Assembly: GCA_027041035.1 (NCBI GenBank)
Contig: JALULB010000118.1
Coordinates: 1-12,236, forward strand
Reading direction: 5' to 3'
DNA from: Sedimenticola sp.
Lineage (GTDB): Bacteria > Pseudomonadota > Gammaproteobacteria > Chromatiales > Chromatiaceae
DNA: 12,236 nt
Part shown: positions 1-6,901 of the stretch, one piece after another
Layout of the letters: each line of letters begins with the position of its first letter
How positions within the stretch are numbered: position 1 is the stretch's first letter
Translations under genes and position numbers: made by a program
The notes under the pieces: model-generated
Databases searched by the model: none
Told to the model about the DNA's origin: nothing
What the model saw: only the letters and a program-made list of their open reading frames with translations

Positions 1-285
1 GGCAACATCCACACCAACCTGCTGGTGAACCCCGACGACGAGGCGGAGATGCAACGCGCAACGGCCTGTCTGTCCGGCGTCTTCGATCTCGTCCTGCGAC
101 TCGACGGCACGTTGTCGGGCGAACACGGCATCGGCCTGGTGAAACGTGAATTCGTCGCCCGCGAGATCGATCCGGTGACCCTGGAGATGATGCGCCGGAT
201 CAAACGTCAGTTCGACCCGAACAACATCCTGAACCCGGGCAAGGGCCTGCCCACGGGTTCGGAACAACAGAGGACAACGCCTTAG
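1..285 (+). CDS. FAD-linked oxidase, C-terminal end (GlcD / D-lactate dehydrogenase family), 5' truncated by window
   Basis: The frame is open from base 1 (reading GNIHTNLLVNP) to TAG at 283-285, so only about the last 94 residues are present. The segment GTLSGEHGIGLVKREF and the ending RRIKRQFDPNNILNPGKG are the hallmark of the FAD-linked oxidase C-terminal domain found in glycolate oxidase subunit GlcD, D-lactate dehydrogenase and D-2-hydroxyglutarate dehydrogenase. The conserved GEHG carries the His of the substrate/flavin site in this family. These enzymes oxidise a 2-hydroxy acid to a 2-oxo acid and pass electrons to quinone, cytochrome or an Fe-S partner. The N-terminal FAD-binding domain lies outside the window, so the substrate cannot be assigned. 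A GTG at 25 is internal, not the start. The stop overlaps the stop of the convergent TPR gene by 4 bp, leaving no room for a separate terminator. Confidence 0.9.
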   Translation, partial: GNIHTNLLVNPDDEAEMQRATACLSGVFDLVLRLDGTLSGEHGIGLVKREFVAREIDPVTLEMMRRIKRQFDPNNILNPGKGLPTGSEQQRTTP

Positions 286-812
286 GGCGTGGCATGCATC
301 GGCATGGCTGCCGCCGACTTGCCCTTGCCCATGGACGGAGCTTCCACGCCCTGGTGCAAGGCCACGTCCGCTTTCGATGCCTGTTCGATGACCTTCTGAC
401 GGGCATCGATGTACTCGGCCAGCTTGCTCGCGTTCTTCATCGACGGGTCGAGTTGCAACGCCTGATTCGCCATCGCGTGCGCCATCGCGAACTCACTCTG
501 ATGCAGATAGCTGATCGCCATCGCGACGAAGTACTTCGGATTCTCCGGATCGTTGATGATCGCCTGCTGATAAGCGTTCGCCGCATCCTCCGCCTTGTGT
601 TGCGTCAGGTAGAACGCGCCGAGTTTCGACCACGCCTTGGCTGAATCCGGCGCAAGCTCGGTAGCCTTCAGAAACGCCTGCTCGGCCTTGTCGAACTGTT
701 TTTCGGCAAAGAAGTGGGCGCCTTGTTGCATATAGCCAGCAGCATCCTCGGCCGCGCCGGCCGATGCCGCGAGCGACAATAATACGGCCAGCAAGATCAT
801 TCTAAACGTCAT
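282..812 (-). CDS. Exported three-TPR repeat protein, last gene of the nap-side cluster
   Basis: This is a 176-residue protein. Residues 1-21 form a Sec signal peptide (MTFRMILLAVLLSLAASAGA, cleavage near AGA-A/ED), so it acts in the periplasm or at the outer face. Three tetratricopeptide repeats follow at about residues 24-57, 58-91 and 92-125, each with the A/G-x3-Y/F, A-x3-A and closing P pattern (ELAPDS, INDPEN, QLDPSM). A further helix (about 126-155) and a low-complexity Ala/Met/Lys tail complete it. TPRs bind other proteins, and I see no catalytic motif. The start is supported by GGAG six to seven bases before ATG. It lies downstream of napB in the same direction but is separated by a palindromic element and a stem-loop, so co-transcription is uncertain. 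A role in assembling or docking the multiheme/Nap proteins is only a guess from position. It could equally be an unrelated TPR scaffold. Confidence 0.85.
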   Translation of the reverse strand: MTFRMILLAVLLSLAASAGAAEDAAGYMQQGAHFFAEKQFDKAEQAFLKATELAPDSAKAWSKLGAFYLTQHKAEDAANAYQQAIINDPENPKYFVAMAISYLHQSEFAMAHAMANQALQLDPSMKNASKLAEYIDARQKVIEQASKADVALHQGVEAPSMGKGKSAAAMPMHATP

Positions 813-870: not shown

Positions 871-890
871 CCTAGGAGGCTGTCGGGTTT
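871..890 (+). repeat. Left terminal inverted repeat of the MITE-like element
   Basis: This 20-base arm is the exact reverse complement of 1020-1039. It begins with the palindrome CCTAGG. Confidence 0.9.
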
Positions 891-1019
891 AACGCTGATC
901 TACTGCGGAAAAGCCCTTTTGGCCCGTTTTCCCGTTCACTTTCGTTAAATAGAATGACTATTCGCCTCAAGTGAACGAAAAAACGGACTCAAAATGGCTT
1001 TCCCTCGCTACGATCGGTC

Positions 1020-1039
1020 AAACCCGACAGCCTCCTAGG
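1020..1039 (-). repeat. Right terminal inverted repeat of the MITE-like element
   Basis: This 20-base arm is the exact reverse complement of 871-890. Its last base touches the napB stop codon (1040-1042, TAG on the minus strand). Confidence 0.9.
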
Positions 1040-1480
1040 CTACTTCCATTCGGGATTGAAGCGGTTGTCCACCAACGGTGGCTTGTTCATCTGCGGCGCA
1101 TGACATTGCGTGCAGAAGTAGTAGCGCGTGGAGACATAACCGGTACGCTCCCCCTTGCGATTGACATAATGGTTCTTGCCGATCGGGGTCGCCTTGATAT
1201 CACCAGCCTCGAGATCGCTGTGGCAACCCAGGCACTGGTTCTTCTTCAAGCTGATGCGCGCTTGATCCACGCGGTGCGGAATCAGCGGCGGCGCATGCTT
1301 GTAGGAACGCGGATAGACCTTGTCCGGCAGGATGACGCGCGCCTGTGCCGGGCGCACGGATATCTTCTCCACCGGTCGATAACCTCGCAACGAACTGGCG
1401 CCATCGACCGCAATGGCGTCGAGCGCGAATACCGCGAGAAGCAAGCCAAGCGCTGCGAATATTCCTGACTGTTTCATCAT
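1040..1480 (-). CDS. napB: NapB, diheme cytochrome c subunit of periplasmic nitrate reductase
   Basis: This is a 146-residue electron-transfer subunit that passes electrons to NapA in the periplasm. It has a Sec signal peptide (residues 1 to about 24, hydrophobic GIFAALGLLLAVFAL). Two c-type heme sites are present, CLGCH at 83-87 and CTQCH at 123-127. The NapB hallmark YKHAPPLIPH (60-69) and the NHY segment (103-105) supply candidate distal His ligands. Length and layout fit the family. The start is one of two adjacent ATGs (1480 or 1477), with GGAGG five or eight bases upstream. The gene begins 12 bp after the napA stop, which indicates an operon and probably coupled expression. The stop codon is immediately followed by the 169-bp palindromic element, which must have been inserted at, or has become, the 3' end of this transcript. 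The identification is firm. Confidence 0.96.
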   Translation of the reverse strand: MMKQSGIFAALGLLLAVFALDAIAVDGASSLRGYRPVEKISVRPAQARVILPDKVYPRSYKHAPPLIPHRVDQARISLKKNQCLGCHSDLEAGDIKATPIGKNHYVNRKGERTGYVSTRYYFCTQCHAPQMNKPPLVDNRFNPEWK

Positions 1481-1492
1481 TCTGTCCTCCCG

Positions 1493-4042
1493 TTAAGCCT
1501 TGACGACCCGCACCGGGGTCTTTTTGTAATCCGTCTCTTTCGACAACGGATCGGTCGCATCCAGGATCAGCTTGTTCACAAGCCTGCTGGCATCGAACCA
1601 GGGAATGAAGATCAAACCTTCCGGAGGCAGATTCCGCCCGCGCGTCTCTACCCGCGCGATGATCTCGCCGCGTGGACTCTGCACCTTGGCCAGGGAACCC
1701 CGCCGCATGCGACGTTTCGATGCATCGCGAGGATGCATGAAGATCACCGCGTCCGGCACGGCGCGATACAGCTCCGGCACACGCCGCGTCATCGATCCGG
1801 AATGCCAGTGTTCCAGCACGCGCCCGGTACACATCCACAGGTCGTATTTGTCGTTCGGCACCTCGGGAGGCGGCTCGTAGGGCGCGGTGATGATATTCGC
1901 CCGGCCATCCTTACGGCCATAGAAACGTATGCCATCGGGGGCATCCTCCGGTACATGCGGATCGTAACCCGCGCGGAAGCGCCACAGGGTTTCCTTGCCG
2001 TCGATCACCGGCCAGCGGATACCGCGCGCCTTGTGGTAGGCCTGAAACGGGGCTTGCTCATGGCCTCGCTTCGGTCCCTCGAACTGGAAGCGACGATATT
2101 CCTCGAACAGGCCCTTCTGCACATAGTAGCCGAAATGTTCGGATTCGTGGTTTCCATACTGGTTACCCGCCTCGTCATGCACGCCCTCGAACTCGAACTT
2201 GTCGACTTGGCCATTCTTGAACAGCACGTCATACAGCGTCTTGCCACGGTATTCCGGCTTCTTCGCCAGCAGACTCTCCGGCCAGACCTCTTCGGTCTTG
2301 AAGCGTTTCGAGAATTCCATGATCTGCCAGACATCCGATTTCGCCTGTCCCGGCGCGCGCGTCTGCTCGCGCCAGAACTGGGTGCGTCGCTCGGCATTGC
2401 CGTAGGCGCCCTCTTTCTCCACCCACATCGCGGTCGGCAGGATCAGGTCCGCCGAGGTCGCGGTGACTGTTGGATAGGGATCAGATACAACGATAAAGTT
2501 CTTCGGGTTGCGATAAGCGGGATATACTTCGTGATCAATATTCGCCGCTGCCTGCATGTTGTTGTTGCACATCACCCAGTAGGCGTTCAGCTTGCCATCC
2601 TTCAACATGCGGTTTTGCAAGACCGCGTGGTAGCCCTTCTTGCCCGGAATCGTACCTTCGGGCAGTTTCCAGATCTTCTCGGCAAAATCACGATGCGGCT
2701 TTTTGAACACCACGTAGTCGGCTGGGAGACGATGAGAGAAGGTGCCTACCTCGCGCGCGGTGCCACAGGCCGAAGGCTGCCCGGTCAGCGAGAACGGGCC
2801 GTTGCCCGGCTCGGAGATCTTGCCCATCAGCAGATGCACGTTATAGATCAGCCCGTTGACCCACACGCCGCGGGTATGTTGATTGAAGCCCATGGTCCAG
2901 TACGAGGTGATCTTCTTGTCCGGATCGGCATACAGCTTGGCGAGGCGTACCAGGCGCTCGCTGGGCACGCCGGAAAGTTCACTGACGTACTCCAGGGTGT
3001 AAGGCTTCAGCGACTTGGCATACTCCTCGAAGCTGATCTTGCTCAGCTTGCCCTTGCCGGCGTTACGCGCCTTCCTCTCGCGCCGGTCGGTCGGGCGCAG
3101 ACCGTAGCCGATATCGGTCGGCGTCTTGTTGAAATTGACGTGCTTGCCGATGAAATCCTCGTTGTACAGCTTGTTTTCGACGATATAGTTGGCGATATAG
3201 TTCAGGATAGCCAGATCGGTCTGCGGCGTAAACACCAGTGAGTTGTCGGCCAGCTCGAAGCAGCGATTCTCGTAGGTGGACAGTACATGCACCTCGCAGC
3301 CTTTGTGGGTCAGGCGCCGGTCGGTCAGGCGCGACCACAGGATCGGGTGCATCTCGGCCATGTTGGAGCCCCACAAGACGAAGGCGTCGGCATGCTCCAG
3401 GTCGTCGTAGCAGCCCATTGGCTCGTCGATTCCGAAGGCCCGGATGAAACCACCGACGGCGGAGGCCATGCAATGGCGTGCATTCGGGTCGATGTTGTTC
3501 GAGCGGAACCCCGCCTTGTACAGCTTGGAAGCGGCATAACCGTCCCAGATCGCCCACTGACCGGAACCGAACATGCCGACCCGAGAGGTCATCTTGTCGA
3601 CCGACTTGTGGCGGTTCTCCCGCATGCTCTGCTTGATCGCGGCCTTCCATTTCTCCGCCATGATATCGAAAGCCTCATCCCAGCTGATAGGTTCGAAATC
3701 ACCTTCCTTGTCGAACTTGCCGTCCTTCTTGCGCAGTAATGGTTGGGTCAGGCGATCCTGCGCGTAGAGTATCTTCGACAGGAAATAGCCCTTGATGCAG
3801 TTCAGTCCACGGTTCACCGGTGCATCCGGGTCACCCTGTGTACCGATGACCCGGCCATTGCGGGTACCCACCAGGACACTGCAACCGGTACCGCAGAAGC
3901 GGCATGGCGCCTTGTCCCAGCGGATGTCCTTGTCGTCTATGTCATCCGCCTTCACCAGTGTGACAGGCAGGCTGACGCCAGCAGCGCTCGCGGTAGCCGC
4001 GGCCGCGCTCTGTTTCATAAAGCTTCTTCTTGTAATGCTCAT
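1493..4042 (-). CDS. napA: NapA, catalytic molybdoprotein of periplasmic nitrate reductase
   Basis: This 849-residue enzyme reduces nitrate to nitrite in the periplasm with electrons from NapB. A twin-arginine signal (TRRSFMK, residues 4-10, then an Ala-rich stretch) shows Tat export of the folded cofactor-loaded protein. The N-terminal [4Fe-4S] ligands are C47, C50, C54 and C82. K84, just after the last Cys, matches the conserved Lys thought to relay electrons from cluster to pterin. The molybdenum-ligating Cys is C191 in [12 protein letters not shown]. Other bis-MGD segments are visible, for example [38 protein letters not shown] and the C-terminal [18 protein letters not shown]. The length is usual for proteobacterial NapA. 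The start has a strong GGAGG eight bases upstream. No napD chaperone or napC/F/G/H gene is in this window, so Tat-signal proofreading and quinol oxidation need genes elsewhere. It lies downstream of an octaheme cytochrome gene, past a terminator. Confidence 0.98.
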
Positions 4043-4067
4043 GGATTAATCCTCCAGCCCAGGGGAT

Positions 4068-4090
4068 ATCCAGTGTGCTAGGCACTGGAT
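4068..4090 (-). promoter_or_regulatory. Inverted repeat in the napA leader
   Basis: Perfect 8-bp arms ATCCAGTG (4068-4075) and CACTGGAT (4083-4090) flank a 7-base spacer. The dyad sits between the upstream terminator and the napA Shine-Dalgarno. It could be an RNA hairpin in the leader or a binding site for a dimeric regulator. The sequence matches no operator that I recognise. Confidence 0.5.
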
Positions 4091-4099
4091 TCCGGAACT

Positions 4100-4133
4100 A
4101 AAAAAGCCCTCTCCGGCGGACGCCGGCGAGGGC
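4100..4133 (-). terminator. Rho-independent terminator after the octaheme cytochrome gene
   Basis: On the minus strand a GC-rich stem (arms 4121-4133 and 4106-4118, 13 positions with one G-A mismatch, loop about two to three bases) is followed by six T's (4105-4100). It lies 33 bases after the octaheme gene's stop and 57 bases before napA. It should end most octaheme-gene transcripts, leaving napAB to read-through or its own promoter. The dyad TTGAACGTTCAA (4136-4147) lies just upstream of the stem. Confidence 0.85.
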
Positions 4134-4166
4134 CGTTGAACGTTCAATGACAGAACGCCAAGCCTA

Positions 4167-5615
4167 TCACTTGCTATAGCGCGCCCTGAACTCGGCTGCG
4201 GCCTTCTTGCGCGCGGCCTTTTCCTTCGGATCCATCTTGTCGTTGAACCAGCGGTGATCCTTGGTATCCAGCACCTGGGCGATCTTTTTCTTCAGTGCCC
4301 TGGCGGCTTTACGCTGCTTGCTCTTCTTCGAGTGCATGCCCTTGTCGATCAGCTCTTCCAACTCGGGAATCATCTTCAGATAGAAGTTCTCGGCAACCTC
4401 GAAGAGTCCGTTCCAATGCACGTAATCAGGCGCCATCATCGATGCGCCATGACGTGCGCGACGGCCTTCGTGATGCCAGATCTTGAACCAGGTCCAATCC
4501 AGCTTGTTGCTGAACTTGGCCGGACGCAACAGCGGCTTGGCCATCTTGTACAACGCCAGACCCGGCGCGGCAAACTTCTTGTTGTACAGCTCGACCAGCG
4601 AGTCGTACTGGAAGTAGAAGTTTTCGACAAAGTTGTCTTCGTGACAAGCGGTGCAGACATCCTGCATGTTGTCGCGACGCTCTTCCCAGTTCACGTTCGC
4701 GCTTTCCAGGCCCATCTTGGCATCGGCCTTCTCCGGACGTATGGACATTACCGGACGGTTGTTCCAACTGATACGCAGGCCAACGTTATGCGTGACCGGT
4801 TGGTCACGCGTTTCACCCATGTGGCAGGTCGAGCAGGTCGGACCCAGATTGAAATCCTCGCCCGGTATCCACTTCGGGTTGTCCAGGTTCATGTCCGCTT
4901 CATGGGTGAAGAATGCGATACCGTGCTTGGACTCCTCATAGATCTCCTTCTGTGGATGATCCGGACCAAGATGGCATTTACCGCAGGTATTCGGATGACG
5001 CGCCTGAGCAACCGAGAACTCATGTCGCTGATGACACGCGGTACAAGCACCTTCGGAACCGTCGGGATTGATACGCCCAATACCTGTGTTCGGCCAGGTG
5101 GCTGGATCGAGCAGACCGTCTTCCAGCACCTTGACCTGGGAGCCGTGACAAGCCCAGCAGCCATTCACGGCCGTCGCCGAGTTTCCCTCGGGGAAGGCAT
5201 CGGTGATCATGTCGCGGTTACCTTCCACGACCTCGGCCAGCAGGTTATCCAGGGAACCCAGGATACGCCCGGCCTTGGCGTGATGGGATGCCTCGGCTTC
5301 CTTCACCTCGCGTTCATGGCAGTTCTGACAGTCGCGCGGAGAGACGATGGTCGAGATCAGTTTCTTGACCTTTTTGTCGTCATGGATGTAGGCGTCCTTG
5401 TCGCCTTCATTCGCGGCATGGCATTCGTAGCAGCCCACGTTCGCCCGGTAATGCTTGCTCGCGCCCCATTGCTGGACAATGCCCGGACTGTGTTTCTTAT
5501 GGCAGGTAACGCACTGCTTCGTGGTATCCGACATGCTCGGTGGCGGTTCCTTCACGGACGCCATGGAGACACTATATGCCAGCAACAGGCTGACGCAGAG
5601 AATAAAGCTCCGCAT
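4167..5615 (-). CDS. haoA: Octaheme cytochrome c of the hydroxylamine oxidoreductase family, probably reductive (epsilon-Hao-like)
   Basis: This 482-residue periplasmic protein has a Sec signal peptide (residues 1 to about 20) and eight CXXCH sites at 35, 62, 96, 153, 191, 211, 261 and 321. The order and the flanking motifs CTACHQRHEFS, CGKCHLGPDH, SKHG, TCSTCHMG and THN match HAO. By alignment from memory, heme 4 (CWACH, 153-157) is the catalytic heme, and D219-H220 corresponds to the Asp-His active-site pair of Nitrosomonas HAO. The region after heme 8 reads ARHGASMMAPDYVHW and EVAENFY, followed by a Lys-rich tail (residues 413-479) without tyrosine. The Tyr that cross-links P460 in nitrifiers is therefore apparently missing. 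Such members are thought to reduce nitrite to hydroxylamine or ammonium rather than oxidise hydroxylamine. There is no haoB, c554 or cM552 gene beside it. The start has GGAGG six bases upstream. An FNR-type box lies about 119 bp upstream of the start codon. Confidence 0.9.
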   Translation of the reverse strand: MRSFILCVSLLLAYSVSMASVKEPPPSMSDTTKQCVTCHKKHSPGIVQQWGASKHYRANVGCYECHAANEGDKDAYIHDDKKVKKLISTIVSPRDCQNCHEREVKEAEASHHAKAGRILGSLDNLLAEVVEGNRDMITDAFPEGNSATAVNGCWACHGSQVKVLEDGLLDPATWPNTGIGRINPDGSEGACTACHQRHEFSVAQARHPNTCGKCHLGPDHPQKEIYEESKHGIAFFTHEADMNLDNPKWIPGEDFNLGPTCSTCHMGETRDQPVTHNVGLRISWNNRPVMSIRPEKADAKMGLESANVNWEERRDNMQDVCTACHEDNFVENFYFQYDSLVELYNKKFAAPGLALYKMAKPLLRPAKFSNKLDWTWFKIWHHEGRRARHGASMMAPDYVHWNGLFEVAENFYLKMIPELEELIDKGMHSKKSKQRKAARALKKKIAQVLDTKDHRWFNDKMDPKEKAARKKAAAEFRARYSK

Positions 5616-5805: not shown

Positions 5806-5819
5806 TTAATCTAAATCAA
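5806..5819. promoter_or_regulatory. Second FNR-like site
   Basis: TTAATCTAAATCAA keeps the right half-site and has one mismatch in the left. Its centre is 72 bp from the centre of the perfect box, close to seven helical turns. It would place a second dimer near -113 of the octaheme promoter, or upstream of the beta-barrel gene, where CATAAG (5836-5841) is a weak candidate -10. Confidence 0.5.
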
Positions 5820-5920: not shown

Positions 5921-6901
5921 ATGCCTTCGCCCAGCTTCGACCCGCGCATTCCAGCCGCCACCGGCATCCGCCGCTGGATCTCGCGGCGTGCCCTTTTGCC
6001 AGTCGCCTGCGTTGTCTTTGGCGCAACAAGCGCCCATGGCAGCGAGACAAGCGTATCCATCGACAACACGCTGTCGCGGATCGCACTGCGGCTCGATCAT
6101 TACGCGCGTCGAATCGATGACTACTTCGGTGACAATCAGCGTTTCATCGAACAAGCGAACACCCGGGTCACATTGAGCATCAAGGGGCTGTTGCAAACCG
6201 TCGGTGGAAACGAAACCGATTATGCACTGCGCGCAAAGGTATCCCTGCCGCGCGTGGAGAAACGCCTGCACCTGTTCTTCAGCAAGGACTCCGGCAGCGA
6301 TGGCGCGCTCGGCGACAACTCGGACTTCTTCGGCCCACGTGGCGGCCTGGACTCGACCTCCAACCTCGGTCTGCAATACTTCTTTCGCGATGTCGAGGAA
6401 AGCAACATCAGCATGCGCATCGGCGCCAAGATCCGTGGCGGCTCGCTGCACATGTTTACCGGACCGCGATACCGCCGCACATTCGAATACGGAGATTGGC
6501 TGGGCCGCTTCACCCAGGAGCTGCTGTGGCATACCGATGACGGCTGGGAGTCCGACACCCGGCTGAATTTCGACCGCCTGCTGGCCAGCCGGCTGCTATT
6601 GCGCACCAATCTGCGCGGTCTGTGGCTGGAGTCGAACGAAGACGGCTACGAATACTCTCTGGATTTCGCGCTGGATCAGACGCTTGCGAGCGGTCGGATC
6701 GTCCGCTACGAATGGAACAATGCGTTCAAGAGTGGGGTCGGCGGGCAATTGAATGAAACCCGGGTGCGGGTTCGCTATCGGCATGCGCTGTGGAAGAAAC
6801 GCCTGTTTGGCGAGATCGCGCCGCAACTTGCTTTCCGCGACGACGAGCACTTCCGCGCATCCTGGGGCGTGGAACTGAAATTGGAACTGGTGATCGACTG
6901 A
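5921..6901 (+). CDS. Unrecognised exported protein, probable outer-membrane beta-barrel
   Basis: This 326-residue protein belongs to no family that I recognise. A late signal peptide is visible: basic RRWISRR (17-23), a hydrophobic core, and cleavage near SAHG/SE (about residue 40). The mature part opens with an amphipathic helical stretch (NTLSRIALRLDHYARRIDDYF). It then runs in alternating polar/non-polar strands separated by Asp/Gly/Asn-rich turns, for example TRVTLSIKG, YALRAKVSL, LGLQYFF, ISMRIGAKI, TRVRVRYRHALW and ASWGVELKLELV. This is the pattern of an outer-membrane barrel. The C-terminus (LELVID) lacks the usual final aromatic residue. An in-frame TGA at 5915-5917 means ATG 5921 is the earliest possible start, although no good Shine-Dalgarno precedes it. 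It is divergent from the octaheme gene and shares its FNR control region, so co-regulation is plausible. It could be a porin or a periplasmic beta-rich protein. Its function is unknown. Confidence 0.8.
   Translation: MPSPSFDPRIPAATGIRRWISRRALLPVACVVFGATSAHGSETSVSIDNTLSRIALRLDHYARRIDDYFGDNQRFIEQANTRVTLSIKGLLQTVGGNETDYALRAKVSLPRVEKRLHLFFSKDSGSDGALGDNSDFFGPRGGLDSTSNLGLQYFFRDVEESNISMRIGAKIRGGSLHMFTGPRYRRTFEYGDWLGRFTQELLWHTDDGWESDTRLNFDRLLASRLLLRTNLRGLWLESNEDGYEYSLDFALDQTLASGRIVRYEWNNAFKSGVGGQLNETRVRVRYRHALWKKRLFGEIAPQLAFRDDEHFRASWGVELKLELVID

Follow-up and report, generated by a model that had tools for sequence, protein, structure and literature searches.

An epsilonHao-type octaheme cytochrome gene beside napAB, with its own terminator-like hairpin, in a Sedimenticola sp. 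MAG

The window analyzed here, a whole contig of 12,236 bp (G000:C118) from the MAG of a sulfur-oxidizer-like Sedimenticola sp., carries the gene of an octaheme cytochrome of the HAO family (Hao) in front of napA and napB. Sequence marks identify Hao as an epsilonHao-type, reductive-looking octaheme protein and not as a nitrifier HAO. A terminator-like hairpin follows hao and FNR-type boxes precede it. We lean slightly towards a reading in which Hao would be an FNR/Dnr-controlled, more abundant periplasmic epsilonHao reductase that converts the nitrite from NapAB directly to ammonium, beside a NirS-based denitrification. Gene identities and order, the missing tyrosine, the boxes, the hairpins and the gene content all rest on sequence.

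The MAG (G000) comprises 2.26 Mb in 404 contigs and is 62.7% complete; its congeners G001 and G002 are both 99% complete. On the minus strand the order from 5' to 3' is hao, napA, napB. The preliminary description had reported napA, napB and an eight-CXXCH HAO homologue consecutively on one strand, and its coordinates and order are exact (Table 1). Its picture of the locus has to be extended, in that the 124-nt gap between hao and napA contains a strong terminator-like hairpin and the group runs on to a TPR protein gene across a 169-bp insert. NapA scored 1419 bits on TIGR01706 (cut-off 930.55) and 1466 bits on NF010055 (cut-off 904), and by these models its identity is unequivocal. NapB passes the Pfam NapB model PF03892 (125.8 bits, cut-off 25.1) and stays under the NCBIfam equivalog cut-off of NF008609 (75 versus 230). 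The TPR protein reached 35.9 bits for NrfG and 28 bits for CcmH/CycH, both under the cut-off, and is a possible helper of cytochrome maturation. The remaining window genes are the end of glcD, sspB, sspA, genes for Rieske protein and cytochromes b/c1 (labels from reading the translations, without a model run), a Nif3-like gene and a DegS/AlgW-type protease gene. Divergent from hao lies an ORF of 326 aa (5921-6901, plus strand), beta-barrel-like by eye and without a Pfam or NCBIfam match; it is 89% conserved in G002, where it stands between sspB and hao.

Table 1. Coordinates of the hao-nap group and neighbouring elements in the window
Feature	Position	Strand	Description
hao	4167..5615	-	482-aa octaheme cytochrome c, HAO family, predicted epsilonHao (reductive) type
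napA, periplasmic nitrate reductase catalytic subunit	1493..4042	-	Tat signal; TIGR01706, NF010055, TAT signal model, PDB 2nya and 3ml1
napB, diheme subunit	1040..1480	-	12 nt past napA; PF03892
TPR protein gene	282..812	-	last member of the hao-nap group; Pfam/NCBIfam profiles and synteny
Terminator-like hairpin with T run, hao-napA spacer	4100..4134	-	fold; conserved position
FNR-type palindrome TTGATCTAGATCAA	5734..5747		118 nt upstream of the hao ATG
Second FNR-like site, one mismatch	5806..5819		upstream of hao
MITE-like insert, 23-bp inverted terminal repeats	871..1039		napB-TPR gap

The octaheme protein passes PF13447 with 86.6 bits (cut-off 21.9), all of its eight CXXCH motifs fall at invariant columns (alignment A1), and a signal-like stretch was seen by eye at its N-terminus. 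The eight PDB sequences that it matches are octaheme/HAO-type proteins (4qo5, 6h5l, HDH, HAO). The hydrazine dehydrogenase model NF052343 of NCBIfam gave 77.4 bits, and its cut-off of 900 was not reached. In nitrifier HAO heme 4 is cross-linked by a tyrosine of the adjacent subunit, which we take to be Tyr467 of 4fas. This residue, located by counting in the alignment, aligns with Trp401 of Hao. Trp401 and Met393, eight residues earlier, were invariant in 84 of 84 rows of alignment A2. In a larger set, pre-filtered for the motif WHHEGRRA and seven or more CXXCH (93 rows, 92 of them different), Trp401, Met393 and His220 were present in 93 rows, Asp219 in 92 and Arg287 in 91. Among the 120 homologues listed, a regular expression for the Trp site matched 106, every one with Trp, and did not match the other 14. 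In the HMMER alignment with N. europaea HAO, Asp219/His220 align with Asp267/His268 and Arg287 occupies the place of Tyr334, HAO residues that presumably have catalytic roles. The closest PDB entry by sequence as well as by model is 4qo5, deposited as a hypothetical multiheme protein, with 27-28% identity in the structure matches; we take it to be the octaheme cytochrome of the archaeon Ignicoccus hospitalis. A second AlphaFold model of Hao, based on 84 sequences, had a mean pLDDT of 75.5 and HAO-type structures as top matches, with poor global superposition.

A Trp with a Met eight residues before it is described as a feature of epsilonHao, and the absence of the Tyr-heme cross-link as favouring reduction, in the part of PMC8940962 used here, which also gives a role for the cross-linking tyrosine. 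The reductive reading of Hao thus derives from the Trp401/Met393 marks, from Asp219, His220 and Arg287, and from 4qo5 as closest structure, and the Trp and Met marks bear out the earlier proposal of an epsilonHao-like reductive octaheme protein beside Nap in a gammaproteobacterium. Membership among the nitrifier-type HAO proteins was rejected, Trp standing at the place of the cross-linking tyrosine. Identity with NrfA was rejected, as Cytochrom_C552 (PF02335) is not among the Pfam matches of the window protein, and so was identity with octaheme tetrathionate reductase (OTR), as the sole TIGR04315 match in the MAG is a gene on another contig. A 60% identical member of the Trp-bearing Hao family is encoded on a contig of the anammox MAG Ca. 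Scalindua SCAELEC01 (L054/L120), which has HDH/HAO-like paralogues elsewhere in its genome.

The spacer between hao and napA forms a strong hairpin with six T, and the z value of the whole spacer is -3.36; a generic hairpin scan did not list this hairpin. Of 26 close gammaproteobacterial loci, 25 had a best 44-nt fold 3' of hao of -18 kcal/mol or lower and 24 were T-rich, and 10 of 78 shuffles of these loci reached the energy alone. Ten more distant gammaproteobacterial types all reached this energy (shuffles 9 of 30), with only four T-rich, and the 57 loci of other phyla reached it in 37 cases versus 61 of 171 shuffles, with 15 T-rich. The pattern is therefore clear only in close relatives. 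As a control, conserved ORFs were compared. Terminator-like structures were found 3' of hao in 26 of 33 cases, versus 3 of 71 for other genes in tandem and 10 of 112 for other genes. Where a same-strand gene follows within 300 nt, the counts were 17 of 22 for hao versus 3 of 28 for other tandem pairs (gaps of 50-300 nt). Among the nap-linked loci the window, G002, G032 and G082 were scored as terminator-like in this control and G103 was not (strong hairpin, few T); G001, which lies outside the control, has a hairpin and a T run after hao. A simple hao-napAB operon was rejected on account of the hairpin. Our reading is that hao would be transcribed separately and more abundantly, with read-through into nap and TPR attenuated; we infer the expression ratio from the hairpin. 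Alternatively, nap may have a second promoter of its own. Probably, hao is a separately dosed anaerobic unit.

The perfect FNR-type palindrome and the one-mismatch site both lie upstream of hao, the former between hao and the divergent ORF. Sites with at most one mismatch were expected 0.26 times, and two were reached in 5 of 200 shuffles. Perfect boxes were found within 350 nt upstream of hao in 10 of 36 gammaproteobacterial loci (6 of 26 close, 4 of 10 more distant). These ten are among a total of fourteen perfect boxes in 449,465 bp, of which the hao upstream regions make up 12,291 bp (binomial P 2e-13, without correction for relatedness). The other 26 of the 36 upstream regions, one of them only 41 nt long, have no perfect box, and the same holds for four of the six nap-linked ones (G001, G032, G082, G103).

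We surveyed the 210 genomes returned for the order of the host, all those listed being labelled as the same family. An HAO-family gene was present in 74 (E<=1e-100) and NapA in 119 (E<=1e-200). Seventeen of the 74 were full-length at 61-100% identity, the others belonging to more distant types (about 48-58%). Among named genomes, MAGs with the title Sedimenticola sp. come closest by Hao (96, 89 and 73% identity), and HAO-family genes also occur in Thiotrichaceae, Thioglobus and symbiont genomes. Comparing the hao and napA tables by eye, together with synteny, showed hao as the immediate same-strand 5' neighbour of napA in six of the order's genomes (G000, G001, G002, G032, G082, G103). The search for the same gene order in gammaproteobacterial genomes, which had been suggested earlier, was thus positive, and the recurrence in six genomes argues that the pairing is not due to chance. 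The direct pair is absent from the remaining 68 of the 74 HAO-bearing genomes, which leaves the earlier idea that NapA feeds nitrite directly to Hao a speculation. In G205, G058 and G179 the two genes share a contig and a strand and are separated by about 5-11 kb.

Elsewhere among the relatives the place directly 3' of hao is taken by a TPR gene instead of nap (G008, G018, G033, G009, G025, G048 and nine named loci); the TPR proteins are a loose family of 27-51% similarity. TPR is therefore the commoner partner of hao, and in the window lineage napAB is placed between the two. Across many phyla, 17 of 80 named loci, several of the 80 being truncated by contig ends, have a NapA-type gene no more than 5 kb from hao, 14 of them on the same strand. 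Ten of these 17 NapA proteins were tested: nine pass the NF010055 cut-off (L074 fails) and five that of TIGR01706. In the HAO tree (FastTree) a branch with support 99 separates the 13 rows labelled Gammaproteobacteria from the rest, and ten unlabelled rows of the same family, of the more distant types, lie outside it. The hao-linked NapA proteins of the window genus and of G032/G082/G103 fall into two clades of the NapA tree, so that the linkage may have one or two origins. Both congeners have a second hao paralogue (55% identical; L166 in G002, L167 in G001) in a separate clade with other family members; it was not found in the incomplete G000. In L148 (G078), hao-TPR is followed by a 48% NapA-like gene and by napG and napH of a different Nap lineage, which makes an apparently independent hao-nap neighbourhood.

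The adjacency of Nap and epsilonHao is already known, including one gammaproteobacterium, the orange Guaymas Beggiatoaceae, in which Nap genes lie upstream of the octaheme gene BOGUAY_0691 (PMC6449678, in part). BOGUAY_0691 and Hao are both gammaproteobacterial octaheme HAO-type proteins with NapA and NapB as gene neighbours and nirS in the genome (PMC6449678 and PMC6052272, both in part). In contrast to that locus, with nap upstream and a protein of 511 aa, nap lies downstream here and the protein has 482 aa; the two were compared by description only. In vitro, the Beggiatoaceae octaheme converted nitrite to ammonia (PMC6052272, in part). Further cases of Nap beside epsilonHao are given for several Campylobacterota, Denitrovibrio and Caldithrix in the portion of PMC5317091 used, and for Deferribacter in that of PMC6896113. 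Caldithrix abyssi and Deferribacter share with the window a hao that adjoins nap and, as far as these portions go, lack NrfA. However, both belong to a different phylum from the host, Caldithrix having a NapM-type Nap without napB (PMC5317091) and Deferribacter an Hcp inside the cluster (PMC6896113). Given these published lineages, the window locus is a further case of a known arrangement. The Beggiatoaceae example in print, together with the 74 of 210 genomes, speaks against the earlier claim that such a locus would be unusual in the class. For the hairpin pattern, the FNR-box pattern and the G103 island described below we met no published account, the literature not having been searched by those terms.

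The other nitrogen genes of the host were analyzed likewise. A second NapA, 81% identical, is encoded on C310 with napB and napC behind it. NirS on C192 is of the canonical form, with 888 bits against a NirS of solved structure, and is accompanied by genes similar to nirC, nirF, nirJ and nirN. NorB is on C235 (84% to the G103 protein) and NirB on C344 (974 bits, cut-off 578). The OTR gene (TIGR04315; G000:C309:5092-6462) reached 592 bits (cut-off 375) and may encode a further nitrite-to-ammonium enzyme. No match to NrfA (PF02335) was obtained in G000, G001 or G002; over 16 genomes this model gave three weak matches, and only G073 passed the cut-off. Hcp (PF03063) was found in none of the 16 genomes, including G000 and both congeners, and the same search matched 5 of 14 control genomes. 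At 62.7% completeness gene absence in G000 itself is weak evidence, the congeners being 99% complete. The preliminary description had advised checking the host for nitrite and hydroxylamine genes and had named a complete Nrf/denitrification set, together with an octaheme gene silent under nitrate, as evidence against its route. This applies in part, with NirS and NorB present and NrfA not found; NirB is present as well, and Hcp was not found. The lack of a detected NrfA agrees with the proposed route, and the idea of a dedicated nitrite route is weakened, as the MAG also has NirS, NorB, NirB, OTR and a second napABC.

The Nautilia-type scheme, with hydroxylamine and then ammonium, fared no better. 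Nautilia profundicola, for which reverse HURM was proposed, resembles the host in having an octaheme HAO-family protein without the tyrosine, Nap and no NrfA (PMC3701875, in part). In contrast to the window, its hao (locus 1280) and nap (0553-0556) are far apart, and its scheme includes Hcp and no NO-forming nitrite reductase (same source, in part), whereas the host has NirS, NirB and OTR and yielded no Hcp match. As neither Hcp nor NrfA was detected, also in the 99% complete congeners, the hydroxylamine-plus-Hcp scheme is unsupported, and direct reduction of nitrite to ammonium, or detoxification, is likelier.

We therefore favour, by a modest degree, the FNR/Dnr-controlled epsilonHao reductase, based on the FNR-type boxes, on NapA near hao in 17 of 80 loci and on the search results for NrfA and Hcp. 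A regulator, presumably of the FNR/Dnr type, would switch hao on when oxygen is lacking, and the hairpin would let Hao accumulate in larger amounts than the products of the downstream genes. NapAB would reduce nitrate to nitrite, with the NapC of the second nap cluster as probable electron donor. Nitrite may then bind at heme 4 via Asp219, His220 and Arg287 and be reduced to ammonium in one step, most likely without free hydroxylamine. Hao would work alongside NirS/NorB denitrification, and the TPR protein would probably aid cytochrome maturation. Several points count against this explanation: Hao is not needed as sole nitrite reductase in a host with NirS, NirB and OTR, the native Beggiatoaceae protein also oxidized hydroxylamine and hydrazine, its expressed and purified form had lowered nitrite-reducing activity, and Ca. 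Thioglobus autotrophicus, a homologue-bearing SUP05 bacterium, showed no growth on nitrite (all PMC6449678, in part). In addition, 26 of 36 upstream regions lack a perfect box, the direct nap pair is limited to 6 of 74 hao genomes, the T-rich hairpin occurs in only 4 of 10 distant types, and outside the class the fold energies are only moderately better than those of shuffles.

The main rival, which we consider rather unlikely, is that Hao is a detoxifying rather than respiratory reductase for denitrification by-products (hydroxylamine, NO, excess nitrite), which would protect the enzymes of the periplasm, the main flux passing through NirS/Nor. The NirS and NorB of this MAG, three other nitrite-reducing enzymes (NirS, NirB, OTR) and the lack of a detected Hcp to remove hydroxylamine in the 16 genomes are in line with this, as is the G103 island, and PMC6449678, in the part used, raises it as well. 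However, Hao is present where PF02239 (NirS) gave no match (G078, G066, G008, G073), and NapA, a nitrite producer, recurs near hao across phyla. An oxidative Hao that converts hydroxylamine (or hydrazine) to NO or nitrite and passes the electrons into the chain would fit the family name, the fold and the oxidase activities of the native Beggiatoaceae relative (PMC6449678, in part), but it is improbable in view of the Trp in place of the cross-linking tyrosine, the FNR-type boxes upstream and the Nap neighbourhood. Most improbable is a Hao that mainly reduces another substrate, such as a sulfur oxyanion, or stores electrons beside an incidental nap: 63 of 80 named loci, some ended by contig edges, have no NapA-type gene within 5 kb, but several phyla and six genomes of the order have NapA close to hao, and the Asp/His/Arg residues are conserved.

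The G103 island (L139, G103:C116:1-20000) carries on one strand hao, napA, napG, napH, napB, napC, a Tll0287-like gene, a cytochrome d1 protein gene, nirF, nirJ, a gene for a further d1 protein, a norC-like cytochrome gene and norB. Its NapG, NapH and NirJ pass the NCBIfam cut-offs, unlike NapB (131.7 versus 230) and NapC (281.4 versus 310.6, translated from a start set too early). The first d1 protein, a divergent one, has 6rtd as best PDB match (161 bits), with NirS at 124 bits, and was therefore not assigned as canonical NirS. The labels nirE and nirC are by position only, and the norC-like gene shows no domain other than cytochrome c.

A broader idea, which we hold to be doubtful as a whole, is that hao in sulfur-oxidizing Gammaproteobacteria would be a periplasmic sink for nitrogen oxides, over-produced under FNR control and equipped with a conserved terminator of its own, behind which a few lineages have placed napAB, or in G103 a whole nap-nir-nor island. 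Promoter strength and read-through would then set the share of nitrite that goes to ammonium, by an Hcp-free one-step epsilonHao reaction, versus NO. Sulfur oxidizers, symbionts and Thioglobus-type bacteria without detected NrfA carry Hao, and its activity may decide if their nitrate is kept as ammonium or lost as N2O/N2. The locus offers testable handles in the FNR-type box, the hairpin that separates hao and nap, the Trp/Met/Arg signature and a host with denitrification genes.

The MITE-like insert that abuts the napB stop codon is repetitive, with 12 matches in its own genome at no less than 94% identity over at least 140 bp (window copy counted). The napB-TPR gap of G001 is short and free of this insert, and in G002 the site is occupied by a different insert.
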